64,000 nt of DNA from Actinotalea sp. JY-7876 (GTDB taxonomy: Bacteria > Actinomycetota > Actinomycetes > Actinomycetales > Cellulomonadaceae), in the NCBI RefSeq assembly GCF_014042015.1, contig NZ_CP059493.1, positions 1-64,000 of the forward strand, in the 5' to 3' direction. How positions within the stretch are numbered: position 1 is the stretch's first letter; each line of letters begins with the position of its first letter. Below, one piece after another: positions 14,511-64,000 of the stretch. Position numbers and translations under genes: made by a program. The notes under the pieces were generated by a model that saw only the letters and a list, made by a program, of their open reading frames with translations, was not told the origin of the DNA and searched no databases.

Positions 14511-15812
14511 GTGCCCAGCTCCCCCACGCCCGACCCGACCTTCGCGCACCGCACCGCTGACGCGACGCTGACCGTCCTGGGGCCCGACGGCGCCCCGCTG
14601 CGCGACGCGGACGTCGTCGTCGCCCAGACGCGGCACGCGTTCGGCCTCGGAAACATCGGGTTCGAGTTCATCCCGCTCGCGAACGACGAGCTGAGCGACG
14701 ACGGCGCGCCGGCGGGCGGCCGGCCGGCGCTGGGCGAGGCCGAGGGCACGCGGCTGTCGCGTGGGCAGGCGCAGCACCTCGCCGACCTGTGGCTGGACGT
14801 GTTCAACACGGCGACCCTCCCCTTCTACTGGGGCCGGTTCGAGCCCGTGCGCGGCAGACCCGACACGGCCCGCCTGCGCCGGACGGCCGAGTGGTTCGCC
14901 GAGCGCGGGGTCGCGCTCAAGGGCCACCCGCTCATGTGGCACACGGTCCAGCCGGACTGGCTGCTCGACCTGCCGACCGACGAGGTGGAGCGCCTCCAGC
15001 GCGAGCGCATCCGGCGCGAGGTCGGCGACTTCTCGGGGCTGATCGACACGTGGGACGCGATCAACGAGGTCGTGATCATGCCCGTGTTCGAGAACGGCGC
15101 CAACGGCATCACGCCGCTGGCGCGCGAGCGCGGCCGCATCGCGACCATCCGCCTCGCCTTCGAGGAGGCGCGCGCGACCAACCCGTCCGCGACCCTGCTC
15201 CTCAACGACTTCGACATGTCCACGGCGTACGAGTGCCTCATCGAGGGAGTGCTCGAGGCGGGCATCCAGGTCGACGTCCTGGGCCTGCAGAGCCACATGC
15301 ACCAGGGCTACTGGGGCGAGGAGAAGACGCTCGCGATCCTCGACCGGTTCTCGCGCTACGGGCTGCCGATCCACTTCACCGAGACCACGCTGCTGTCGGG
15401 GCACCTCATGCCGCCCGAGCTCGAGGACCTCAACGACTACCAGATCCCCCACTGGCCCTCGACGCCCGACGGCGAGGCGCGGCAGGCGGACGAGGTCGAG
15501 CGGCACTACCGCACGCTCGCCTCGCACCCCTCGGTGCAGGGCGTCACCTACTGGGGCCTGTCCGACGGCGACATGTGGCTCGGCGCGCCCGGCGGCCTCG
15601 TGCGCGCGGACGGCACGCCCAAGCCCTCGTACGACGCGCTGCGCCGCCTGGTCAAGGACGAGTGGTGGCTGGCGCCCACGGCGCTGCGCACGGATGCGCA
15701 GGGCCGCGTGGGCGTCGGTGGCTGGCTCGGCGACTACGAGGTGCGCGCCGACGGGCGTGCGGCGGCGTTCACGCTCGAGGCGGGGGCAGCGCCCGAGGTC
15801 ACGCTGGGTTGA
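14511..15812 (+). CDS. Glycoside hydrolase family 10 (endo-1,4-beta-xylanase-like)
   Basis: GH10 enzymes hydrolyse beta-1,4-xylan with retention. The acid/base is Glu186 in TWDAINEV and the nucleophile is Glu291 in IHFTETT; LKGHPLMWHT near 142 and VQGVTYWGLSDGDMW near 344 line the active site. Residues 1-60 form a small N-terminal beta domain typical of some actinobacterial GH10 proteins. The product is 433 residues with no signal peptide and no carbohydrate-binding module, so it probably acts inside the cell on imported xylo-oligosaccharides, or is exported by an unknown route. The GTG at 14511 has GAGGAG upstream. It supports a plant-biomass-degrading lifestyle. Confidence 0.9.
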   Translation: MPSSPTPDPTFAHRTADATLTVLGPDGAPLRDADVVVAQTRHAFGLGNIGFEFIPLANDELSDDGAPAGGRPALGEAEGTRLSRGQAQHLADLWLDVFNTATLPFYWGRFEPVRGRPDTARLRRTAEWFAERGVALKGHPLMWHTVQPDWLLDLPTDEVERLQRERIRREVGDFSGLIDTWDAINEVVIMPVFENGANGITPLARERGRIATIRLAFEEARATNPSATLLLNDFDMSTAYECLIEGVLEAGIQVDVLGLQSHMHQGYWGEEKTLAILDRFSRYGLPIHFTETTLLSGHLMPPELEDLNDYQIPHWPSTPDGEARQADEVERHYRTLASHPSVQGVTYWGLSDGDMWLGAPGGLVRADGTPKPSYDALRRLVKDEWWLAPTALRTDAQGRVGVGGWLGDYEVRADGRAAAFTLEAGAAPEVTLG

Positions 15813-34863: not shown

Positions 34864-36123
34864 CTAGCGGCGGACCGGTGCCAGCGGGTCGTCGGCCAGC
34901 TCGCCGCCGATCGCCCGTGCCGTGGCGAGCGCCTCGGCCAGGCACCGCATGTAGGCGGCGGAGACCTCGGCGGGGAGCATCCCGGCCGTGAGCACCCCGG
35001 TGGAGTCCTTGCGCTCGTGGGCCCGCACGGCGACGAGGGCGGCGCCGAGCGCGCCCTCGCCGCGAACCGCACCACGCACGACCTCGGACACGCCGACCTT
35101 GTCGAGCAGCACGTCGACGGGGACGGCGATCTGGCCGGCGAGCGCGGTGAGCATGCCGACCGTGTAGCCCGCAGGGTCGCCCGTGAGCGTCTCGCACGTC
35201 AGCGCGCGGGCGAGGATGAACCACAGGCTGTCCATCGCCCCCGGCCGGGCGCCGAGGAGGAGGCCCGAGACGAGGGTGGTGACCTCGCGGGCCCCGAGCA
35301 GGACCACCGCCTGGTGTGCGGTGTCGACCGGCGCCGCGAGCGAGAACGCGCCGCTGTTCACGAGGTGGAGCAGGCGCAGCGTGAGCACGGGGTCCGTGTC
35401 GACGACCTGCGCGACCTCCGCCATGGGGGTCTCCGGCTGCTGAAGCAGGTGGAGCAGGGCCAGGCACTGGAGCTCGCCGGCGCGCAGCACGCGCTCCGGC
35501 GGCGGCGGCTCGGCCTGGGCCCGCACGGCGTGGCCGCCGTAGAGGGCGTCGACACCGGCCGCGCGGCACTCACGCACCGCGGCGTCGTCGTGCACGTCCG
35601 GCGCCAGCGCTCGCACGCCGGCCCGGTGCAGCCGGTGGACGAGCACCGACAGGGGGAGCGCGGTCCGCCGGTCGACGACGGCGTAGCCGACGGAGCCGAG
35701 CAGCGCGTCCTGCGCGGGCAGCCCGCGGTAGCCGGTCAGCGCGAGGTCGACGCCCAGGGCGCGCAGCACGGCCGTGCGCTCGCGGGCGTCGTCCCGGTCC
35801 TCGAAGCCGAGCGGCAGCTCGAGCACGAGGCGGCCGGGGGCCGACGGCGCGGGCAGGTGCCCGTCGAGCATGGCCGGCGTGGCGGGCAGGAACGCGTAGC
35901 GGTCCGCGACGACGTCGGGCAGGTGCAGGGCGAGGTAGTGGTCGTGCGCGTCGGGGTGCTCCGCCTCGGTCTCGGGCCCGCGCTGCGCCGGCACGACCGG
36001 GGGTGCCGGCGCGACGGAGACGACGTACCCGACGACGCGGCCGTCGAGCGTCGTGACCGGGTCACGGTGGATCGTGGGGCCCTGGGGCCGCGCCTCAGCC
36101 GGCGCCGCGGCCGCCACCGTCAC
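34864..36123 (-). CDS. Degenerate EAL plus HDOD signalling protein
   Basis: A 419-residue protein of the YuxH type. The N-terminal half (about 15-205) has an EAL-like fold: IHRDPVTTLDGRVVGYVV matches the start of such domains, but the EAL motif and the metal-binding Glu/Asp residues are absent, so it is probably not a c-di-GMP phosphodiesterase. The C-terminal half (about 210-400) is an HDOD domain with LLHLLQQPETPMAEVAQVV, DPVLTLRLLHLVNSGAF and VLLGAREVTTLV. The GTG at 36123 overlaps the fliW stop (GTGA), making it the last gene of the flgN-flgK-flgL-fliW operon. The context suggests a role in flagellar or chemotaxis control. Domain calls are solid; function is inference. Confidence 0.85.
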   Translation of the reverse strand: MTVAAAAPAEARPQGPTIHRDPVTTLDGRVVGYVVSVAPAPPVVPAQRGPETEAEHPDAHDHYLALHLPDVVADRYAFLPATPAMLDGHLPAPSAPGRLVLELPLGFEDRDDARERTAVLRALGVDLALTGYRGLPAQDALLGSVGYAVVDRRTALPLSVLVHRLHRAGVRALAPDVHDDAAVRECRAAGVDALYGGHAVRAQAEPPPPERVLRAGELQCLALLHLLQQPETPMAEVAQVVDTDPVLTLRLLHLVNSGAFSLAAPVDTAHQAVVLLGAREVTTLVSGLLLGARPGAMDSLWFILARALTCETLTGDPAGYTVGMLTALAGQIAVPVDVLLDKVGVSEVVRGAVRGEGALGAALVAVRAHERKDSTGVLTAGMLPAEVSAAYMRCLAEALATARAIGGELADDPLAPVRR

Positions 36124-36542
36124 GCCGCCGTCAGCGGCGCGCGCAGGGGCCACCTGTCGTCGTCGAGCACCACCTGCAGGGCCGTCCCGGTCGAGGCGTT
36201 GACGGCGACCGGCGCGAGGAGGTTCGCGGTCGGCGGCGCGTCGCCCTGGCCCGGGTGGACGACGACCAGCAGGACGGCGTCGTCGGTGCCGAGGGTCTCG
36301 CGCGTCGAGCCGTCCAGCTCGGGCGCGTAGTCCGGGAAGTACGCGCGCGGCGGCACGAGGAAGAGCCGGACGTCGGGCTCCTGCGTGCTGCGCAGCGTGA
36401 AGAGGTAGCCGGTGTCGTCGACCGCCGCGAGCGAGAAGGTGCGCAGGTCCCGCAGGCCCGGCGGCGGCGTGGCGAAGTCGAGGACGTCGGCGACGGTCCG
36501 GGCGTGCGGGGGCGTCGCGGTGTCGGTCACGGTCACGGTCAT
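36120..36542 (-). CDS. fliW: Flagellar assembly factor FliW
   Basis: FliW binds flagellin and the RNA-binding regulator CsrA; free FliW releases flagellin mRNA from CsrA repression. The 140-residue product has the family's beta-barrel features, with VLDFATPPPGLRDLRTFSL (about 20-38) and LLAPVAVNASTGTALQVVLDD (split around 107-127) as landmarks. The ATG at 36542 overlaps the flgL stop (ATGA). Being co-transcribed with flgK and flgL, which like flagellin are exported filament components, fits a checkpoint that measures export. csrA itself is not in the window and would be expected nearby. Confidence 0.93.
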   Translation of the reverse strand: MTVTVTDTATPPHARTVADVLDFATPPPGLRDLRTFSLAAVDDTGYLFTLRSTQEPDVRLFLVPPRAYFPDYAPELDGSTRETLGTDDAVLLVVVHPGQGDAPPTANLLAPVAVNASTGTALQVVLDDDRWPLRAPLTAA

Positions 36543-37428: not shown

Positions 37429-38856
37429 CTACCTCCCCACCACGCCGGTGCGGTTGATGAGCACGTCGAGCATCTCGTCGATCGCCGTGAGGACGCGGGC
37501 GGCCCCCTCGTAGGCCCGCTGGAACGCGAGCATGTTCACCGACTCCTCGTCGAGGTCGACGCTGGCCTGCGAGAGCTGGAGATTCTCGGCGGTCGCGCGG
37601 GTCGTCTCGGTGACGGCGGCGCGCTGCGCGGCGGACCGGCTCGTGACCCCGAGGTCCACGACCCACGCACGCCAGCTCGCGTCCGGGCCGTCCGACGCCG
37701 TGGCGAGCTGCGAGATGCGGTCGGCGACCGAGCCGTCGAAGGCACCCTTGCCGGCGTCGCCCGCCGCGATCTGGCCGGCGTCGGTCACCGCGAGCGAGAG
37801 CCCGAGCGCGGCCGGCTGACCGGCGCCGAGCGTGAAGAAGTCGCCGCCCGCGGCTCCCGCGGGGGTCTGCGCGCCGGCGTGGATCGCGTTGACGGCGTCG
37901 TGGAGCGTGCGCGCGACGTCGTCCCACGCGTTCGCGGCGTCGGCGAGCAGGCCGCCGGAGGACGCCGGCGCCAGGGTCGCGAGGTGCCCGGCGATCGCGC
38001 CGCCCTCCAGGGGCAGCGGCGTGCCGTCGGCCCAGCGGACCGCCACGGGATCGGGAGTCGAGGGCGGCTGGCCGATGCCGCCGGCCATCTCGCGCGATCC
38101 GGTCAGGACCAGGCTCGTGGCAGTGGTGCCGCGGACCAGCATGTTGCCGCCGACGACGACGTCCATGGTCCCGTCCGCGCGCTCGCGGCCCGTGGCGCCC
38201 ACGAGCCCCGAGAGCGTCGTGACCAGCTGGTCGCGCCGGTCCATGAGCTCGTTGGCCGAGCCGCCCGCGACGAGCACCGAGCGGATGGAGTCGTTGAGCT
38301 CGGCGATCGCCGTGGCCGTCGTGTTCACGTCGGCGACCAGGGCCTCCGCCTGGGTGCGGGTCTGGGTCCACTGCGTCTGCACGGCGCGGTAGCCGTCGGA
38401 GACCTGCGTGACCAGGGCGCGGGCGTCGCCGAGGAGGACCTCGCGGGCCGCCGGGTCGTTCGCGTTGTTGCCGACGCCCTGCCACGCGGCCCAGAAGGCA
38501 CTCAGCGCGGCGGCCGGTCCCGTCGTGCCGGGCTCGGTGACGCTGGCCTCGAGCCGGCCGAGGGCCGCCGCGCGGGTGTTCTGGAAGGAGGCGCTCGACG
38601 TCGTCGCGCGCAGGCGGGCGTCGAGGAAGGCGTCGTCCATGCGCGTGATGCCCGTGACGCGCACGCCGTTGCCCGCGCCCTGCGGCGTGGAGAACATCGA
38701 CGGCGCGGACAGCGCGCTGACCGACTCCGTCGTGGTGCGCTGACGCGTGTAGCCGGCGGTGTTCGCGTTCGCCATGTTCTGGCCGGCGACCTCGAGCGCC
38801 TGGCGCTGGGCGATGAGGGACGAGAGGGCGGTCCCGAGCCCCGAGAACGTGCTCAC
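37429..38856 (-). CDS. flgK: Flagellar hook-associated protein 1 FlgK
   Basis: Hook-filament junction protein of 475 residues. The N-terminus MSTFSGLGTALSSLIAQRQAL followed by NMANANTAGYTRQRT is the flagellar rod/hook (FlgB-FlgK type) signature, and the C-terminus has SVNMLAFQRAYEGAARVLTAIDEML split over about 440-465, the shared axial-protein C-terminal helix. Exported by the flagellar type III system, so no Sec signal peptide. The GTG at 38856 overlaps the flgN stop (GTGA). The stop lies 2 bases before the flgL GTG. Confidence 0.94.
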   Translation of the reverse strand: MSTFSGLGTALSSLIAQRQALEVAGQNMANANTAGYTRQRTTTESVSALSAPSMFSTPQGAGNGVRVTGITRMDDAFLDARLRATTSSASFQNTRAAALGRLEASVTEPGTTGPAAALSAFWAAWQGVGNNANDPAAREVLLGDARALVTQVSDGYRAVQTQWTQTRTQAEALVADVNTTATAIAELNDSIRSVLVAGGSANELMDRRDQLVTTLSGLVGATGRERADGTMDVVVGGNMLVRGTTATSLVLTGSREMAGGIGQPPSTPDPVAVRWADGTPLPLEGGAIAGHLATLAPASSGGLLADAANAWDDVARTLHDAVNAIHAGAQTPAGAAGGDFFTLGAGQPAALGLSLAVTDAGQIAAGDAGKGAFDGSVADRISQLATASDGPDASWRAWVVDLGVTSRSAAQRAAVTETTRATAENLQLSQASVDLDEESVNMLAFQRAYEGAARVLTAIDEMLDVLINRTGVVGR

Positions 38857-39332: not shown

Positions 39333-39395
39333 GAGGTCAGTCCTTCTTCCGTGCGGTCACGTCGACGGGCAGCGGGAGCCGCTGTCCTGACCGGA

Positions 39396-39423
39396 TGATC
39401 GGCCGGACGGCGCCCTGTGTGAC
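39396..39423 (-). promoter_or_regulatory. Sigma-28-type promoter of flgN-flgK-flgL-fliW
   Basis: On the minus strand GTCAC, then 15 bases, then GCCGATCA. The -10 is identical to those of fliC and fliM and the spacing is the same; only the first base of the -35 differs. Predicted transcript start near 39389, leaving a leader of about 57 bases before the flgN ATG. Confidence 0.6.
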
Positions 39424-39459
39424 CCTTTCCGTTGGGCCATCTGAGCATCGGCGGCCAAA

Positions 39460-39475
39460 TGTGACGCACGTCACA
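39460..39475. promoter_or_regulatory. Perfect CRP/GlxR-type operator
   Basis: TGTGACGCACGTCACA is a perfect 7-base inverted repeat that fits the cAMP-receptor-protein consensus TGTGA-N6-TCACA exactly. It lies between the divergent flgN and fliA genes. Confidence 0.7.
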
Positions 39476-39532
39476 CAACCGGGTCGGACATGGGCGTCCG
39501 CGTCCGGTTCGTCCTGGGACGTAACCGGGCAA

Positions 39533-39548
39533 TGTGAGCGCCAACACA
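39533..39548. promoter_or_regulatory. Second CRP/GlxR-type operator (one mismatch)
   Basis: TGTGAGCGCCAACACA matches TGTGA-N6-TCACA with one changed base in the right arm. Its centre lies 73 bases from that of the first site, about seven helical turns, so two bound dimers would face the same side of the DNA. Confidence 0.5.
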
Positions 39549-39559
39549 GGGTCCCGGCA

Positions 39560-39568
39560 TGTGGACAA
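39560..39568 (-). promoter_or_regulatory. DnaA box upstream of fliA
   Basis: TGTGGACAA, the reverse complement of the actinobacterial consensus TTGTCCACA, is a perfect nonamer 70 bases before the fliA start and next to the second CRP-type site. Confidence 0.5.
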
Positions 39569-39637
39569 CCCTGGGGAAAGGGCTTTCACCCGCGACGACT
39601 CCTCAAGGGTGATCATGCCGGTCCCGAGAACCACCCG

Positions 39638-40516
39638 GTGACCATCGCAGACCAGGCCGACGCGGCTCTCATCGTCGAGAACCTCCCGCTCGTCGGCTAC
39701 CACGTCAACGCCACCCTCAGCCGCGTGCCGTCGTACGTGTCGCGCTCGGACCTCGCGTCCGCCGGAGCGTTCGCGCTGGTCAAGGCCGCGAAGGCCTACG
39801 ACGCCAGCACCGGCGTCCCCTTCTCGCGCTACGCCTCGCTGCGCATCAAGGGCGCGCTGATCGACGAGCTCCGCGGCATGGACTGGGTCTCGCGCGGCGC
39901 CCGCCGCCGGGCCCGCCGCCTCGGCGAGGTCGTCGACGACCTGACCGCCACGCTGGGCCGCGCACCGTCCCGCACCGAGGTCGCCGAGGCGACCGGGATG
40001 ACGGTCGACGAGGTCGACGCCGCGCGCAGCGACGCCGACGTGCGCGTCGTGAGCATCGACGCGTTCGACGGCGTCGTCGCCGACCAGGTCGTCGCCGTCG
40101 GCGCCGGCCCGGAGGAGAGCCTGCTCGCCGCCGAGCGCCTGCAGTACCTGCACGCCGGCGTCGAGGCCCTGCCCGAGCGCATGCGGTACGTCGTGGAGGA
40201 GCTGTTCTTCCACGACCGCCCCGTCGTGGAGCTCGCCGAGGAGCTCGGCGTCACGCAGTCCCGGATCAGCCAGCTGCGCACGGCTGCCCTGCAGATGCTG
40301 CGCGACGGCATGAACGCGAGCCTCGACCCCGCGCTGGTCCAGCAGGCGGACCGGCCCGACGGCGTCGCGGAGCGCCGGCGCCAGGCGTACTACGCGGACG
40401 TCGCGGCGCGGGCCGCCGGTGCCGCGCACGCGAGCACGGTGAAGGTCGTCCCGCGTCCGCACGACGGCGCGCACGACGTCGCCGCGTCGCGCCGGCACGC
40501 GCTCGCCGTCGGCTGA
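39638..40516 (+). CDS. fliA: Flagellar sigma factor FliA (sigma-28/WhiG type)
   Basis: Alternative sigma factor for late flagellar genes. The 292-residue product has region 2 (about 15-85: LVGYHVNATLSRVPSYVSRSDL split around 17-38, then GVPFSRYASLRIKGALIDELR around 60-80), region 3 (about 95-160: RTEVAEATGMTVDEVDAA) and region 4 (about 180-225: LPERMRYVVEELFFHDRPV followed by LGVTQSRISQLRTAALQ, a helix-turn-helix). An extra Arg/Ala-rich tail of about 50 residues is unusual for FliA. The GTG at 39638 is chosen because it starts just ahead of the conserved core; the frame is open upstream through the control region. No flgM anti-sigma gene is seen in the window. Confidence 0.93.
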   Translation: MTIADQADAALIVENLPLVGYHVNATLSRVPSYVSRSDLASAGAFALVKAAKAYDASTGVPFSRYASLRIKGALIDELRGMDWVSRGARRRARRLGEVVDDLTATLGRAPSRTEVAEATGMTVDEVDAARSDADVRVVSIDAFDGVVADQVVAVGAGPEESLLAAERLQYLHAGVEALPERMRYVVEELFFHDRPVVELAEELGVTQSRISQLRTAALQMLRDGMNASLDPALVQQADRPDGVAERRRQAYYADVAARAAGAAHASTVKVVPRPHDGAHDVAASRRHALAVG

Positions 40517-40557: not shown

Positions 40558-40585
40558 CTCATCGCCCGTCGGGCACCGCCGATCA
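40558..40585 (+). promoter_or_regulatory. Sigma-28-type promoter of fliC
   Basis: CTCAT (40558-40562), 15 bases, then GCCGATCA (40578-40585), with a seven-A tract at 40537-40543 that may serve as an UP element. Predicted start near 40592. The -10 and the next five bases (GTCGG) are the same as in the fliM promoter. Confidence 0.75.
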
Positions 40586-40595
40586 GTCGGGTGCT

Positions 40596-40611
40596 CGCCC
40601 ATGGATGGGCG
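40596..40611 (+). promoter_or_regulatory. ANGGA-loop hairpin in the fliC leader (candidate CsrA site)
   Basis: CGCCC and GGGCG pair perfectly around the hexaloop AUGGAU, presenting GGA as CsrA sites do. It begins about 4 bases after the predicted transcript start and lies 30 bases from the GGA of the Shine-Dalgarno sequence (AAGGAGGA, 40631-40638), a two-site layout like that of B. subtilis hag. CsrA itself is not in the window. Confidence 0.5.
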
Positions 40612-40643
40612 GCGACGTCCGACCCGTCTCAAGGAGGATTCTC

Positions 40644-41465
40644 ATGGGTCTCTCGATCAACCAGAACATCGCGGCGGTCAACAGCTACCGCAACCTGTCC
40701 AACACGCAGAACGACCTGAGCAAGTCGCTCGAGAAGCTCTCGTCCGGCTTCCGCATCAACCGCGCTGCGGACGACGCGGCCGGCCTGGCGATCTCCGAGG
40801 GCCTGCGCTCGCAGGTCGGTGGCCTCAAGGTCGCCGCCCGCAACGCCCAGGACGGCATCTCGGTCGTGCAGACCGCAGAAGGCGCCATGACCGAGGTCCA
40901 CGCCATCCTGCAGCGCCAGCGCGACCTGGCCGTGCAGGCCGGTAACGACTCGAACAACGAGGCTGCCCGCACCAACATCAAGGCCGAGTCGGACAGCCTC
41001 TCGCTGGAGCTGACCCGGATCGCCGACTCCACGAACTTCAACGGCGCCGAGCTGCTCAAGGGCGGCACGATGACGTTCCAGGTCGGGGCCGGCGCGGACG
41101 CCGCCACCAACCAGATCGAGGTCGACCTCGCGGACATCTCGGGTCTTGGCACCACCATCGGTAACCTGACCTTCGACACGGCGGAGAACGCCGCGCTGTC
41201 GATCGCCGCGATCGACACGGCGATCAGCTCCGTCTCGTCCGCTCGTGCCGGCTTCGGTTCGGTCCAGAACCGGTTCGAGCACACCATCAAGAACATCAAC
41301 GTCGCGGTGGAGAACCTGTCCGCGTCGGAGTCCCGCATCCGCGACACCGACATGGCGTCGGAGATGGTCTCGTTCACGCGGGCCCAGATCCTGTCGCAGG
41401 CCGGCACGTCGATGCTCGCGCAGGCCAACCAGATCCCCCAGGGCGTCCTCTCGCTCCTGCGCTGA
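40644..41465 (+). CDS. fliC: Flagellin
   Basis: Filament subunit, 273 residues. The N-terminal D0/D1 region (1-140) starts MGLSINQNIAAVNSYRNL and has KLSSGFRINRAADDAAGLAIS (split about 30-50) and the TLR5-type stretch LQRQRDLAVQAGNDSNN. The C-terminal D1/D0 (about 190-273) ends TSMLAQANQIPQGVLSLLR. The hypervariable middle is only about 50 residues, so domains D2/D3 are missing, giving a thin filament. The ATG at 40644 has the strong AAGGAGGA site; an in-frame ATG at 40605 lies inside the leader hairpin and is unlikely. It is a single-gene unit with its own promoter, leader hairpin and terminator. Confidence 0.97.
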   Translation: MGLSINQNIAAVNSYRNLSNTQNDLSKSLEKLSSGFRINRAADDAAGLAISEGLRSQVGGLKVAARNAQDGISVVQTAEGAMTEVHAILQRQRDLAVQAGNDSNNEAARTNIKAESDSLSLELTRIADSTNFNGAELLKGGTMTFQVGAGADAATNQIEVDLADISGLGTTIGNLTFDTAENAALSIAAIDTAISSVSSARAGFGSVQNRFEHTIKNINVAVENLSASESRIRDTDMASEMVSFTRAQILSQAGTSMLAQANQIPQGVLSLLR

Positions 41466-53309: not shown

Positions 53310-53336
53310 CTCACATCGGGGCGCACCCGCCGATGG
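53310..53336 (+). promoter_or_regulatory. Sigma-28-type promoter of flbD-motA-motB-fliL
   Basis: CTCAC (53310-53314) followed after 14 bases by GCCGATGG (53329-53336). The spacer is one base shorter than in the fliC, flgB and fliM promoters. Predicted start near 53343. Confidence 0.6.
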
Positions 53337-53347
53337 AAACGTCAGCA

Positions 53348-53365
53348 GGGCTCATGGACGGGCCC
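53348..53365 (+). promoter_or_regulatory. AUGGA-loop hairpin in the flbD-motA leader (candidate CsrA site)
   Basis: GGGCUC and GGGCCC pair (six pairs, one G-U) around the hexaloop AUGGAC, beginning about 5 bases after the predicted transcript start. A second GGA lies in the Shine-Dalgarno region (AGGGACGGA, 53379-53387). Confidence 0.45.
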
Positions 53366-53394
53366 CGAGGCATCACCCAGGGACGGATACAGCC

Positions 53395-53670
53395 ATGATC
53401 GTCGTCACGCGCCTGAACGGGCCGCGCTTCGCGGTGAACCCCGACCTGCTCCAGCGCGCCGAGAGCACGCCGGACACGATCCTCACGCTCATCGACGGCA
53501 CCAAGTACATCGTCACGGAGTCGCTCGAGGAGATCACCGAGCTCGTCATCCGGTACCGCGCGCGTGTCGCCGCCGCCACGCTCGACGCGTCGCGGGAGAC
53601 GGCCGAGCTCGCCCCCGTCACCGACCTGCGCCATGCGCGGGCGCTGAGCGCCGTCCCGGAGGCCGACTGA
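53395..53670 (+). CDS. flbD: FlbD-family flagellar protein
   Basis: A small protein of 91 residues; the first 60 (MIVVTRLNGPRFAVNPDLLQ, then a TLIDGTKYIVTESLEEITEL stretch near 28-47) are the short FlbD/SwrD family domain found in Gram-positive flagellar operons, where B. subtilis SwrD is required for full motor torque. It is not the Caulobacter transcription factor of the same name. The extra 30-residue tail is Ala-rich. It is co-encoded with the stator genes motA and motB, which fits a torque-related role. The ATG at 53395 has AGGGACGGA upstream; its stop overlaps motA (TGATG). Confidence 0.9.
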   Translation: MIVVTRLNGPRFAVNPDLLQRAESTPDTILTLIDGTKYIVTESLEEITELVIRYRARVAAATLDASRETAELAPVTDLRHARALSAVPEAD

Positions 53671-54461
53671 TGGATCCGGCAACCCTGGGCGGTATCGGCT
53701 TCGCGTTCGCGATGGTCCTGCTCTCGATCTTCCTCGAGGGCTCGAGCCCCATGTCCGTGGTGCTCCCCGCGCCGATGATCCTGGTGATCGGCGGCACGAT
53801 CGGCGCCGGCCTGGCGTCCACGACGCTGGCCGACTTCACGCTCGCGTTCACGACCCTCAAGGGCTGGCTCACGTTCAAGCGACCGGACCTCGACGAGACG
53901 GTCGACGTCGTCGTCGGCCTGGCCGACCGCGCCCGGCGCGAGGGCCTGCTCTCCCTCGAGGACGCCGCGCGCACGGTCGAGAACCCCTTCCTGCGCTCGG
54001 GCCTGCAGTCCGCGATCGACGGCACGGACCCCGACGACCTGCGCGAGATGCTCGAGGACCGCATCGCGAGCAAGCGCGCGCAGGACAAGAGCATCGCCAA
54101 GGTCTTCAACAACATGGGCGGCTACGCCCCGACGATCGGCATCATCGGCACGGTCGTCTCGCTCGTCCACGTGCTCGAGAACCTCTCGAGCCCCGACGAG
54201 CTCGGGCACATGATCGCCGCGGCCTTCGTGGCGACGCTGTGGGGCCTGCTGTCCGCGAACCTCGTGTGGCTGCCCCTCGGGGCCCGCGTGGGCCGCGCGT
54301 CCGAGCTGGAGATCGCGCACATGGAGCTCGTCGTCGAGGGCCTCCTGGCCATCCAGTCCGGCGCGAACCCGCGCCTGGTCGGTCAGCGTCTGCGCAGCCT
54401 CATGCCGCCCGCGGCCGTGGCCGCCGCCGACGGCAGGACAGGCAAGAAGGCCGCGGCATGA
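53670..54461 (+). CDS. motA: Flagellar motor stator protein MotA
   Basis: Proton-channel stator subunit of 263 residues with four membrane helices (about 8-25, 33-52, 150-172 and 182-204). The cytoplasmic loop (about 65-145) with RREGLLSLEDAARTVENPFL carries the charged residues that act on FliG, and NNMGGYAPTIGIIGTVVSL near 146-164 is the MotA/TolQ/ExbB signature. The ATG at 53670 overlaps flbD; the stop overlaps motB (ATGA). Confidence 0.95.
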   Translation: MDPATLGGIGFAFAMVLLSIFLEGSSPMSVVLPAPMILVIGGTIGAGLASTTLADFTLAFTTLKGWLTFKRPDLDETVDVVVGLADRARREGLLSLEDAARTVENPFLRSGLQSAIDGTDPDDLREMLEDRIASKRAQDKSIAKVFNNMGGYAPTIGIIGTVVSLVHVLENLSSPDELGHMIAAAFVATLWGLLSANLVWLPLGARVGRASELEIAHMELVVEGLLAIQSGANPRLVGQRLRSLMPPAAVAAADGRTGKKAAA

Positions 54462-55339
54462 GCGCCGGCCACGGCTCCGGGGGACACGGGCGCAAGTCGC
54501 GCGTCGTCCACGAGGAGGAGCACGAGAACCACGAGCGCTGGGCCGTGAGCTACGCGGACATGATGACCGTGCTCGTCGGCCTCTTCATCGTGCTCTACGC
54601 GATCAGCCAGGTCGACCAGGTCAAGTTCGAGCAGCTGCGCCAGTCGCTGGCGTCCGGCTTCGGGCAGCCGGCGCCCGTCGCGCTCGAGGGCAGCACGGGC
54701 CCGCTCACGGGTGTCGAGGCGATCCAGATCACGCCCGACCTCCGCTCGGAGGCCGGTGTGGAGGCCGAGCAGATCGCCGCGCCGTCGCCCGAGATCGCCG
54801 AGGCCGAGGCGCGCTCGCAGGCGGCGACCACGGAGTACCAGCGCCTCGACGCGATCGCGGACCAGATCTCGGCCGCGCTCACCCCGGCGGGGCTCGCCGA
54901 CCGCGTCCGGTTCCGGGTCACCGAGCGCGGCCTGGTCATCGGGATGGTCGCCGACGACGTCTTCTTCCGCGCCGCGAGCGCGGAGCTCACCGACACCGCG
55001 CGGCGCATCGTCGACACGACGGCGCCGGTCCTCGCCTCGATCCCCGACGAGATCTCCGTCGAAGGCCACACCAACGACATCCCGGTCTCCGGGCGCTACC
55101 CGACGAACTGGGAGCTCTCGTCCGACCGCGCCACGCAGGTCCTGCGCCGCCTGGTCGAGGCCGGCGGCGTCGCACCTCAGCGCATCGCGGCGGTCGGCTT
55201 CGGGGAGGCCCGGCCGATGGCCGAGCCCGGCGAGGACCCGCTCGAGGCCAACCGCCGCGTCGACCTCGTGGTGCTCTCCTCCGTCCCGGAGGACGTCCGC
55301 GCCCTCCTCCCGTCCATCGCCGCAGCACAGCAGGGGTGA
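54458..55339 (+). CDS. motB: Flagellar motor stator protein MotB
   Basis: Stator anchor of 293 residues. After a His/Glu-rich head, one membrane helix (about 31-50) starts WAVSYADMMTVLVGLFIVLY and contains the proton-binding aspartate in SYADMM. The periplasmic OmpA-like peptidoglycan-binding domain (about 155-285) has VEGHTNDIPV, LSSDRATQVLRRLVEAGG and ANRRVDLVVL. The ATG at 54458 overlaps motA and the stop overlaps fliL (GTGA). Confidence 0.95.
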   Translation: MSAGHGSGGHGRKSRVVHEEEHENHERWAVSYADMMTVLVGLFIVLYAISQVDQVKFEQLRQSLASGFGQPAPVALEGSTGPLTGVEAIQITPDLRSEAGVEAEQIAAPSPEIAEAEARSQAATTEYQRLDAIADQISAALTPAGLADRVRFRVTERGLVIGMVADDVFFRAASAELTDTARRIVDTTAPVLASIPDEISVEGHTNDIPVSGRYPTNWELSSDRATQVLRRLVEAGGVAPQRIAAVGFGEARPMAEPGEDPLEANRRVDLVVLSSVPEDVRALLPSIAAAQQG

Positions 55340-55848
55340 GCATGCCGACCGAACAGCGGATCATCGCGTCCAAGACCGCCAAGGGCGCGTCCCAGCGCAT
55401 CGGCGCGCCCACGGTGGCGGCCGAGGAGGAGCCGCCCCAGCGCAGCCGCAAGAAGCTCGTGCTCGTGCTCGCCCTGCTCCTCGCGCTGGCCGGCGGAGCC
55501 GCCTGGTACCTCCTCCTGGGCCCCGGGGCCGGCGAGCCGGCCGAGGTCGCCGAGCCCGCACCCGTGCCCGGCGAGGTCGTCACGGTCGAGGCCGTGAGCA
55601 TCAACCTCGCGGCGGGGCACTACCTGCGCCTGGGCTTCGCCCTCCAGCTGACCGAGGAGGTCCACGAGGAGGTGTCGACCGCGCATGCGCTCGACGTCGC
55701 CATCGACCTCTTCTCGGGCCGCACCGTGGAGGAGGTCGGCTCCGCCGAGGGCCGCGCGGCGCTCAAGGACCAGCTCCGCCACCAGCTCGTCGAGGGCTAC
55801 GAGGGGGAGGTGATGGACGTCTACCTGACGGACTACGTCACGCAGTGA
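55336..55848 (+). CDS. fliL: Flagellar basal body-associated protein FliL
   Basis: Stator-associated membrane protein of 170 residues (168 from the alternative ATG at 55342). A basic head leads into one membrane helix (about 38-58, KKLVLVLALLLALAGGAAWY) and a periplasmic FliL domain (about 75-170) with LRLGFALQLTEEVHEEV and LKDQLRHQLVEGYEGEVMDV. I list the GTG at 55336, which overlaps the motB stop as other junctions here do. It ends the flbD unit; fliM follows after 201 bases with its own promoter. Confidence 0.92.
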   Translation: MSMPTEQRIIASKTAKGASQRIGAPTVAAEEEPPQRSRKKLVLVLALLLALAGGAAWYLLLGPGAGEPAEVAEPAPVPGEVVTVEAVSINLAAGHYLRLGFALQLTEEVHEEVSTAHALDVAIDLFSGRTVEEVGSAEGRAALKDQLRHQLVEGYEGEVMDVYLTDYVTQ

Positions 55849-55894: not shown

Positions 55895-55938
55895 ACCGGC
55901 ACGGAGGCCGGTGCAGTCGAGGCGCCACGGAGGGCGCC
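55895..55938 (+). promoter_or_regulatory. Twin hairpins with identical ACGGAG loops between fliL and fliM
   Basis: ACCGGC/GCCGGT (55895-55912) and GGCGCC/GGCGCC (55921-55938) are 6-base-pair stems that each close an ACGGAG hexaloop, separated by 8 bases. They lie after the fliL stop and ahead of the fliM promoter, so they would be in the 3' end or read-through part of the motor transcript. A further short hairpin (55864-55876) precedes them. Confidence 0.5.
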
Positions 55939-56015
55939 ACCTCACCCGCACGCCGCACGACGGCGAGCGGGGGCACGACACGCGGTCACCGCGTGCACCC
56001 ACGTGCCCTGGACTC

Positions 56016-56043
56016 CTCATGACGCCCGCGCGCGTGCCGATCA
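56016..56043 (+). promoter_or_regulatory. Sigma-28-type promoter of the fliM operon
   Basis: CTCAT (56016-56020), 15 bases, GCCGATCA (56036-56043), followed by GTCGG as in the fliC promoter. The expected start point about 7 bases later coincides with the fliM GTG at 56050. Confidence 0.78.
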
Positions 56044-56049
56044 GTCGGC

Positions 56050-57006
56050 GTGACCGTCACTGAGGCAGCAGCCGCGCCGCCGACCCACGCCGGGCGCCGC
56101 GCCCCCGGCGCGCCGCCACGCGCGCCCGAGCTGTACGACTTCCGTCGTCCGATGACGCTCGCGCGCGAGCACGGCCGTGTCCTGGAGATGGCCTTCGAGA
56201 CCTACGCCCGCCAGTGGAGCACCCTGCTCACCTCACGGCTGCGCGTCGTCGCGTCCGCGACGCTGGTGTCCGTCCAGCTGCACTCGTACGACGAGTACGT
56301 CCGGCCGCTGCCCACGCACACCGCGATGATCCTGTGCGGCGTCGAGCAGGGCCGGTCCACGGCCGTCGTGCAGCTCCCCGTGGACACCGCGACGCTGTGG
56401 GTCGACTACCTGCTCGGCGGGCCGGGCATCGCGCTGCCGGACACGGAGCGTGAGCTCACCGACATCGAGTGGCGCCTCGTGCGCGACCTGGTCCAGGTCT
56501 CCCTCGGCGACCTCGCCTACGCCTTCGCCGCCGTGCGCGAGCTCGACGTGCACGTGAAGTCGGTCCAGTACGCACCCCAGTTCGTCCAGGCGGCCGGCGC
56601 GTCCGACCCCGTCCTGGTCGCGCGCTTCGAGCTCGTCACGGGGGAGCGGCGCTCGACGGCGACCCTCATGCTCCCCGCCGACGTCCTGCTGGCGCCGCTG
56701 CGGGCAGGCGAGAACGCCGTCGTCCGCTCCGTCGACGAGGTCCGCCAGCACGACGACGCCCTCGCGCGCCTCGCCGCGCAGGTCCACGAGGTCCCGGTGC
56801 GGGTCAGCGTCCGCCTGGCACCCGTGACGGTCACCCCCGCGCAGCTCACCGACCTCGCGGTCGGCGACCTCGTCCCCCTCACCCACCGCGTCGGCACGCC
56901 GCTCGACGTCGTCGTCGACGACGTCGTCCTGGCCGGTGCCGCGCTCGGGAGCAACGGCTCCCGTCTCGCCTGCCTGGTCGTCACCTCCGAGGAGAGCACC
57001 CGATGA
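56050..57006 (+). CDS. fliM: Flagellar motor switch protein FliM
   Basis: C-ring protein that binds CheY-P and sets rotation direction. The 318-residue product has a middle CheC-like domain (about 30-225, with ELYDFRRPMTLAREHGRVLE near the start) and a C-terminal SpoA domain (about 240-315, with VRVSVRLAPVTVTPAQLTDL and LTDLAVGDLVPLTHRVGTPL). The N-terminal CheY-binding motif (LSQxEIDxL) is absent, as the head is Ala/Pro-rich, so CheY contact may lie elsewhere, for instance on FliN. The GTG at 56050 sits where the transcript is predicted to begin and has no ribosome binding site, consistent with a leaderless mRNA. Confidence 0.92.
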   Translation: MTVTEAAAAPPTHAGRRAPGAPPRAPELYDFRRPMTLAREHGRVLEMAFETYARQWSTLLTSRLRVVASATLVSVQLHSYDEYVRPLPTHTAMILCGVEQGRSTAVVQLPVDTATLWVDYLLGGPGIALPDTERELTDIEWRLVRDLVQVSLGDLAYAFAAVRELDVHVKSVQYAPQFVQAAGASDPVLVARFELVTGERRSTATLMLPADVLLAPLRAGENAVVRSVDEVRQHDDALARLAAQVHEVPVRVSVRLAPVTVTPAQLTDLAVGDLVPLTHRVGTPLDVVVDDVVLAGAALGSNGSRLACLVVTSEESTR

Positions 57007-63407: not shown

Positions 63408-64000
63408 CGGTGAGGACCTGCGCTCGCTGATGCTGCGGGTCAAGACCGAGATGGGTCCGGGCGCCCGCATCGTCAAGGCGGAGCGGATCCGCACCGGCGG
63501 CATCGGCGGGTTCTTCGCCAAGGAGCACTACGAGCTGACCGTCGAGGTCCCGGACGCGCCCCACCGCGTGCACCCCGGCCGCCGGATCCACCAGCGCGGC
63601 GCGCGGCCCGGCGACGCGGCCGGGGCCGACGGCGGCGCGGCGGGCATCGAGGCGCTGCTGGACGCGGCGGACGCCGCCGAGGCGGCCGAGGCGGTGACGG
63701 CCCCGGAGCCCGAGATCTCGACGACCAGCCCGTCGTTCGCCGAGGTCCTCGAGTCGCTGGGCCAGATCGTCGGGCCCCAGGCCCGCACCGCGGCACCGGC
63801 CGACGACGTCGCCGTCGCGGTGGACGACGTCGTGCTCGCGGACGACGTCGTGGACGACGCCGTGCCGGACCGCGCGTCGCCGCCGCTCACGCCCGACCCT
63901 GCGCCACCCGCCCCGCCCGCGGCGGGTGCGACCGTCGGGCTGCTGCTCGAGCTCGGCCTGCCGACGTCGTACCTGGCGGGCCTGGGCGACCTGCACGCGG
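63385..64000 (+). CDS. flhF: FlhF-like signal-recognition-type GTPase, N-terminal part (runs off window)
   Basis: Partial gene of at least 205 residues. The start MPTRLLLDGEDLRSLMLRV, followed by MGPGARIVKAERIRTGGIGG and FFAKEHYELTVEV, matches the FlhF N-terminal B domain (ELGPDA..., GGFFG..., E.EVT pattern). An Ala/Asp-rich linker (about 60-175) follows, then a TVGLLLELGLPTSYLAGLGD helix that would precede the N-G GTPase domain; the GTP-binding motifs lie beyond the window. FlhF localises the flagellum and promotes export-gate assembly. The ATG at 63385 lies inside the 3' end of flhA. Confidence 0.82.
   Translation, partial: MPTRLLLDGEDLRSLMLRVKTEMGPGARIVKAERIRTGGIGGFFAKEHYELTVEVPDAPHRVHPGRRIHQRGARPGDAAGADGGAAGIEALLDAADAAEAAEAVTAPEPEISTTSPSFAEVLESLGQIVGPQARTAAPADDVAVAVDDVVLADDVVDDAVPDRASPPLTPDPAPPAPPAAGATVGLLLELGLPTSYLAGLGDLHA

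Follow-up and report, generated by a model that had tools for sequence, protein, structure and literature searches.

The leader of the flagellin gene fliC in Actinotalea sp. JY-7876 is very probably a 5' untranslated region repressed by CsrA and, since the same leader design stands before flbD-motA-motB-fliL, the same switch most likely gates this stator operon too. We base this reading on sequence comparison and on analogy with Bacillus subtilis and Campylobacter jejuni, having begun from a window of 64,000 nucleotides, by which we mean the whole stretch of DNA that was analysed. Comparison gives good support for control of flagellin by CsrA and its antagonist FliW.

The flagellin leader and its conserved hairpin

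The fliC gene (40644-41465, forward strand; ATG at 40644) is identified by matches to Pfam Flagellin_N and Flagellin_C, and the closest named flagellins are those of Actinotalea sp. C106 (94%) and Cellulomonas humilata (90%). Immediately upstream on the same strand lies a sigma factor gene, fliA-type by position (39395-40516; Pfam Sigma70 regions 2, 3 and 4). A pattern scan placed a sigma28-like promoter, CTCA-N16-GCCGAT, at 40558-40583 (forward strand); this call, like that at 53310-53334 described below, depends on what we take to be the sigma28 consensus, and the hag gene of B. subtilis has a promoter of the same class. Given this promoter, the hairpin described next lies near the expected 5' end of the transcript. 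A scan for sigma70 promoters and terminators gave no match, and Rfam release 15, searched at gathering thresholds with the window and six loci, yielded tRNAs and nothing else.

The candidate CsrA site is a hairpin at 40595-40612 (forward strand), with the loop AUGGAU (40601-40606) closed by the stem CGCCC (40596-40600) and GGGCG (40607-40611) and an optional sixth pair, U40595-G40612. The second site is found in the Shine-Dalgarno sequence AAGGAGGA (40631-40638, forward strand), where AAGGAGG at 40631-40637 includes another ANGGA. A preliminary description of this DNA had reported a five-base-pair hairpin presenting AUGGAU at 40596-40611 and a second GGA 30 bases away; both statements are exact, the two GGA triplets starting at 40603 and 40633. 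A hairpin of this size is not rare in itself, ANGGAN loops with at least five pairs (G-U allowed) occurring six times on the forward strand of the 64 kb and never on the reverse strand, compared with an average of 2.2 per strand for 30 random sequences with matching dinucleotide frequencies, and hence the weight of the case rests on position and conservation. Such hairpins at 15690, inside an open reading frame, and at 38285 were treated as chance. The fold energy of the whole fliC leader is no better than that of shuffled sequences (z -0.74).

Conservation was assessed in 219 flagellin leaders (201 unique) from genomes of the family and from 80 named actinobacterial loci, among them Cellulomonas, Demequina, Microbacterium, Curtobacterium, Arthrobacter, Nocardioides, Aeromicrobium and Dactylosporangium; some genomes enter this set twice (for example, L033 and L183). 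An ANGGAN hexaloop on at least four continuous pairs, 25-85 bases before the start codon, is present in 208 of the 219 leaders, compared with 22 of 4020 dinucleotide shuffles, and the named loci alone have it in 80 of 87 leaders, 28-80 bases before the start. Inspection by eye of the 11 leaders that fail shows that seven retain an ANGGA hairpin with an interrupted stem, that L113 has the loop UUGGAC and that the start of L093 was wrongly set. Divergent second flagellins in multi-flagellin genomes (L160:358 and L167:351, 46-47% identity) are without the hairpin, and so may escape CsrA. Anchoring with the stem disregarded placed an ANGGA 35-65 bases ahead of the start in 216 of the 219 leaders.

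The stem itself covaries around this loop. In an alignment (A1) of 150 of the 158 unique hairpins, in which the aligner displaced a few rows (L181 clearly), covariation scores 0.325, compared with 0.097 ± 0.011 after shuffling (reached in 0 of 500 shuffles) and at most 0.121 in slid controls. The third and fourth pairs from the loop are formed in 149 and 153 of the 158 unique hairpins, against 60% and 84% expected from the composition of the columns, and the third pair alone occurs as CG (105), GC (22), AU (9) and UA (7). One of five covariation measures, the count of pair types, shows no excess (147 of 500 shuffles do as well), and the outer pairs are often open, the fifth in 66 and the sixth in 58 of 149 rows. 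Stems such as GAGACC-ACGGAU-GGUCUC, GAGUCC-ACGGAU-GGACUC and AGCCC-ACGGAU-GGGCU share the loop and the closing C-G pairs and little else. The covariation around an ANGGA loop that the preliminary description had proposed to look for in relatives is thus borne out, and the lack of conservation that it named as contrary evidence did not occur.

The Shine-Dalgarno site is conserved as well. Its GGA reads ANGGA in 204 of the 219 leaders, including 92 that carry ACGGAGGA, in which ACGGAGG departs from AAGGAGG and the second ANGGA is still present. In the named loci and the window, where GGAGG is present, the base there is A for 74 of 85 flagellin genes and for 44 of 251 other open reading frames, which were called mechanically and some of which are surely not genes; the hairpin occurs in two of the 251 other leaders, one of which actually belongs to a flagellin, leaving 1 in 250. 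The distance from GGA to GGA ranges from 22 to 44 bases, and is 25-31 in 175 of 216 leaders; a single CsrA dimer could bridge such a distance. Where a -10 element is recognised, the A of the loop lies 15-19 nucleotides behind it in 154 of 168 leaders, while in 48 of 216 the motif list used recognises none. Across a sample of the phylum containing three genomes of the window's order, its remaining flagellated genomes belonging to other classes, the hairpin (at least four pairs) is patchy, being present in 30 of 65 unique leaders (31 of 3250 at random), and the Shine-Dalgarno GGA reads ANGGA in 59 of 63. As a separate observation, the fliC leaders of L205 (genome G282), L038 and L098 have two GGA hairpins in tandem before the Shine-Dalgarno sequence.

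A second leader and its stator operon

From an alignment of fliC leaders (A2), comprising 62 of 64 sequences and with L038 and L098 misaligned, we built a covariance model, R1. Within its own genome the model matches fliC best (47.1 bits), and its second match (28.9 bits, E 1.6e-5), at 53347-53397, ends on the start codon of flbD; the matches ranked third to fifth (L258-L260) have no hairpin and were rejected. Applied to the phylum sample as a count of presence, R1 was too loose (176 of 396 genomes at E <= 0.1) and this use was abandoned, its scores therefore being taken as leads only and conservation as decisive. Four of the seven best matches outside the window's genome are flagellin leaders; the other three (L268, L270 and L271) were discarded: to the eye their reading frames seem not to be flagellar, and they have no ANGGAN hairpin, L271 showing four pairs around the loop CUGGAA. 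Since chance matches of similar or better score occur in other genomes, the flbD leader was likewise judged by conservation.

All features of this second locus lie on the forward strand. The pattern scan gives a sigma28-like promoter, CTCA-N15-GCCGAT, at 53310-53334, followed by the hairpin GGGCUC-AUGGAC-GGGCCC at 53348-53365, a candidate CsrA site, and by a Shine-Dalgarno region with two overlapping ANGGA motifs (AGGGACGGA) at 53379-53387. The genes that follow have overlapping ends: flbD, or swrD (53395-53670; Pfam FlbD, E 1e-24), the stator genes motA (53670-54461; Pfam MotA_ExbB) and motB (54458-55339; Pfam MotB_plug and OmpA), and fliL (55336-55848; Pfam FliL). FlbD/SwrD affects motor power in B. 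subtilis. In Actinosynnema, a passage of one published account deduces that swrD-motA-ompA-fliL is one operon (PMC9019756).

In the family, 52 of 65 flbD leaders have an ANGGAN hairpin of at least five pairs, compared with 4 of 2600 shuffles. Where a -10 is recognised, the A of the loop is 16-20 nucleotides behind it in 49 of 52 flbD leaders. The resemblance to fliC in promoter, spacing and hairpin is close enough to suggest a relic, that is, a sigma28 promoter with its leader, duplicated from fliC and simply inherited since, with no role in stator control. We consider this unlikely. It would sit well with the genera that keep flbD and lack the hairpin, which is absent from 10 leaders of the family (G007 and G015, both in the genus of the window, and genera g5, g8 and g15) and irregular in three, and with the two pairs next to the loop, which change on one side only. 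Against it, ANGGA recurs at the expected place behind the -10 in 55 of 65 leaders when the stem is disregarded, 51 of them with at least five pairs, and the covariation score, 0.349, is reached by none of 500 shuffles (0.206 ± 0.016) and by none of the slid controls (at most 0.192). This score comes from a stem-blind alignment (A5) of all 44 family hairpins that had been picked, among them the mis-anchored L326, together with the window (44 distinct rows), in which four of six pairs show two-sided changes (a number reached by 17 of 500 shuffles) and the count of pair types is reached by 7 of 500. We prefer A5 to an alternative alignment (A3), which drops L326 and adds two leaders chosen for having a hairpin (L341 and L346), and which gives 0.415 compared with 0.197 and two-sided changes in all six pairs. 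The fold energy of the whole flbD leader is no better than that of shuffles (z +1.55).

Leaders from other families further disfavour mere descent, because they show the hairpin on other stems. Those of G282 (L341; CGGCGGUC-ACGGAC-GACCGCCG) and G271 (L346; GGGCAG-AAGGAU-CUGCCC) keep the loop 41-42 bases before flbD with different stems; by eye, that of G305 (L339) has one bulged base, and those of G478 (L354) and G382 (L343) a seven-base loop, G382 being bulged too. The flbD leader of G536, from another family, has no hairpin. By eye also, the flbD leaders L289 and L297 (G158 and G157) carry a long AGUCCGUCCGUG inverted repeat that spans the promoter and the ACGGACGGACU site and replaces the usual hairpin.

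Two further hairpins lie on the forward strand between fliL and fliM, 26 bases apart: ACCGGC-ACGGAG-GCCGGU at 55895-55912 and GGCGCC-ACGGAG-GGCGCC at 55921-55938. Both come from the scan for ANGGAN loops, are seen in the fold of the region and recur at the same place in L358 and L359, so that the pair is kept in all three same-genus genomes examined as a near-identical island between diverged flanks. The region folds with z -2.17, and 6 of 200 shuffles fold as well; the three genomes offer practically no covariation, and the pair was not seen between fliL and fliM in the four regions from other families where both genes were located (G282, G305, G382 and G478). GGA stem-loops in a row are also the form of the sequestering RNAs of the CsrB/RsmZ type (according to passages of PMC4894983), from which the present case differs in having two hairpins only, in its position 3' of a protein-coding operon and in an organism with FliW. 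That this region is a putative CsrA-binding element, and perhaps a small sponge, is a guess from the sequence to which we give modest weight. A third, G+C-rich hairpin found by folding (55945-55971, forward strand), with no U run, is possibly the end of the operon transcript. Further downstream, fliM seems to have its own sigma28-like promoter within 56016-56050, the -10 ending about nine bases before the GTG, with similar spacing in L359, so that its transcript may be leaderless.

CsrA and FliW in the genome, family and phylum

The gene for FliW, the CsrA antagonist, lies within the window on the reverse strand (36120-36542), where the preliminary description had put it (Pfam FliW, E 3e-24). 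That description had also expected csrA just beyond position 64000, near flhF, and had counted a genome lacking csrA against its proposal. The gene is present at 64603-64854 in contig numbering, which is also that of the window, 603 bases past the window's end (Pfam CsrA, 79 bits), and is preceded by flhA (Pfam FHIPEP) and an open reading frame of 398 residues and followed by a cheA-like gene. The supposed neighbour is less certain: the 398-residue frame has no Pfam match and is flhF-like only by its position and the general character of the family. An AUGGAG loop with five pairs lies over the start codon of the cheA-like gene (L002:4925; contig 64925).

The predicted CsrA has 83 residues, being longer than that of Escherichia coli, and carries R44, of the RNA pocket, together with V51 and N55. 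Available passages on C. jejuni CsrA describe the role of R44 in RNA binding and state that V51 and N55 are required to bind FliW (PMC7829508). Among the actinobacterial CsrA proteins of the collected loci, N55 was found by eye at a fixed position in 24 of 27, the other three having insertions that shift the numbering. Nine solved relatives include the CsrA chain of a CsrA-FliW complex (5dmb_D of PDB entry 5DMB), which matches residues 2-73 with E 1.7e-10, and the FliW of the window matches the partner chain of the same entry (5dmb_A) with E 7.2e-11; taken by itself, the C-terminal portion of CsrA gives a weak match to 5DMB (E 0.48).

Through the family the two genes follow the flagellum. The 221 genomes comprise 119 with a match to Flagellin_N, a profile that also matches FlgL, 116 with fliW, 106 with csrA and 105 with all three, and neither csrA nor fliW is found in any of the 102 genomes that Flagellin_N does not match. 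We considered the 13 genomes with a Flagellin_N match and no csrA match as natural knock-outs and dropped the idea, as 12 of them are assemblies of at least 170 contigs (G048 has seven) and the fliC leaders seen, from 11 of the 13, keep the hairpin, bar one divergent paralog in G111. One genome, G208 (L255), has csrA, flgL and a fliC with the hairpin, and no recognisable fliW, including in the 17 kb of L255; another CsrA antagonist may be at work there. Of the 396 genomes in the phylum sample, 60 match Flagellin_N, 73 match csrA (72 above the cut-off) and 58 match both; 15 of the 73 have no Flagellin_N match, which implies that CsrA has other duties in them. Several actinobacterial genomes of other classes (for example, G240 and G341) have csrA directly upstream of fliC, unlike the window.

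This co-occurrence of csrA with flagellar genes bears on whether the hairpin concerns CsrA at all. It could instead be a mere 5' stabiliser, protecting abundant sigma28-dependent mRNAs from decay at the 5' end with no part for CsrA. Flagellin mRNA must indeed be abundant, and in both leaders the hairpin stands within a few bases of where the 5' end is expected, the A of the loop being mostly 15-20 nucleotides behind the recognised -10. We find this account very unlikely, for a stabiliser needs no fixed loop, whereas ANGGA holds its place in 216 of 219 fliC leaders irrespective of the stem, and the Shine-Dalgarno sequence has its second ANGGA even in the 92 leaders where ACGGAGG replaces AAGGAGG. 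That CsrA binds the leaders and acts positively or on stability, shielding them from nucleases as its leader binding stabilises the E. coli flhDC mRNA (passage in PMC2587704), seems scarcely probable, given that the second ANGGA overlaps the Shine-Dalgarno sequence in 204 of 219 leaders, as in the repressed hag and flaA genes, so far as the published passages describe them, and that csrA is accompanied by fliW, which encodes an anti-CsrA protein.

Known checkpoints and the proposed circuit

Repression by CsrA, our preferred reading, has two close precedents. The passages available on B. subtilis hag describe two CsrA sites in the flagellin leader, one over the Shine-Dalgarno sequence, with FliW as antagonist (PMC7652899, PMC6529632), and those on C. 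jejuni flaA describe a short leader with one ANGGA in a stem-loop and one over the ribosome-binding site, FliW again antagonising CsrA and the stem-loop being backed by compensatory changes within that genus (PMC4894983). Compared with B. subtilis, csrA here lies apart from fliW and fliC, following flhA and another open reading frame, the upstream site takes the form of a strict hexaloop hairpin (hag being known to us by description, not by sequence) and a second operon, flbD-motA-motB-fliL, has the same type of leader. C. jejuni belongs to another phylum, and its Shine-Dalgarno site is itself within a stem-loop, as far as the passages show (PMC4894983). In both species the checkpoint, as described in these sources, centres on flagellin; C. 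jejuni CsrA binds other flagellar mRNAs too, and in a table of its co-immunoprecipitated transcripts motA reaches a 10.3-fold enrichment, though in just one of the four columns (PMC4894983).

A CsrA/FliW checkpoint on flagellin had been called little described in actinomycetes, which is right in so far as little has appeared; it is not, however, undescribed. In the passages of Bagwell et al. 2008 at hand, hag-like repression of flagellin by CsrA is proposed for an actinobacterium, Kineococcus radiotolerans, and three further Actinobacteria are noted to have csrA next to flagellar genes (PMC2587704). That proposal differs from ours in resting on a match of 9 of 12 bases to a BS2-like Shine-Dalgarno site in one genome, and the same passages contain no hairpin, FliW, comparison of leaders or stator operon (PMC2587704). 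An excerpt of Zere et al. 2015 lists Actinobacteria among the phyla possibly using FliW (PMC4682653), and a survey of actinobacterial flagella used CsrA, FliW and SwrD as queries, its available portions having nothing further on them (PMC10746217). The portions available of three other papers have nothing on fliC or flbD leaders (PMC3720852, PMC8602919, PMC7858070). Among the matches listed in the literature search, which covers titles, the start of abstracts and passages and leaves many subscription journals outside its coverage, there is no description of the hairpin or of a CsrA leader before flbD-motAB. We read the conserved leader of the stator operon and the tandem 3' hairpins as new, and as extending a known checkpoint from the filament to the stator operon.

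In the model set out for B. subtilis and C. jejuni, as far as the passages available give it, CsrA blocks the ribosome, free FliW disarms CsrA and flagellin titrates FliW (PMC7652899, PMC6529632, PMC4894983, PMC7829508). From these two species we infer CsrA binding, repression and relief by FliW in Actinotalea. One pocket of a CsrA dimer would hold the loop AUGGAU and the other the ANGGA of the Shine-Dalgarno sequence, keeping the ribosome off the flagellin mRNA; FliW free of flagellin would bind CsrA beside the RNA pocket, at V51 and N55, and lift the block; and a build-up of flagellin in the cytoplasm would titrate FliW and let the block return. Through the flbD-motA-motB-fliL leader, with its own sigma28-like promoter, the same switch would gate the operon for torque, so that the torque parts would follow flagellin export. 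A fuller version, in which FliW and CsrA gate both filament (fliC) and torque (flbD-motA-motB-fliL), stators are translated only during flagellin export and the two-hairpin 3' element of the stator mRNA in this genus competes for CsrA and so tunes the switch, is offered tentatively, as one against which we would lean slightly.

The sites, loop bases and proteins involved are small and defined, which makes the claim directly testable in a phylum whose flagellar regulation has received little attention. The part available of a 2020 review of CsrA leaves as a question whether any one species uses FliW and CsrA-binding RNAs jointly (PMC7652899). The tandem hairpins bear on whether the two cooperate within one species and, if their proposed role is true, a protein antagonist and an RNA sponge would belong to one circuit. 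With a conserved leader on the stator operon as well, the checkpoint would be one of late assembly, coupling motor power to filament export.
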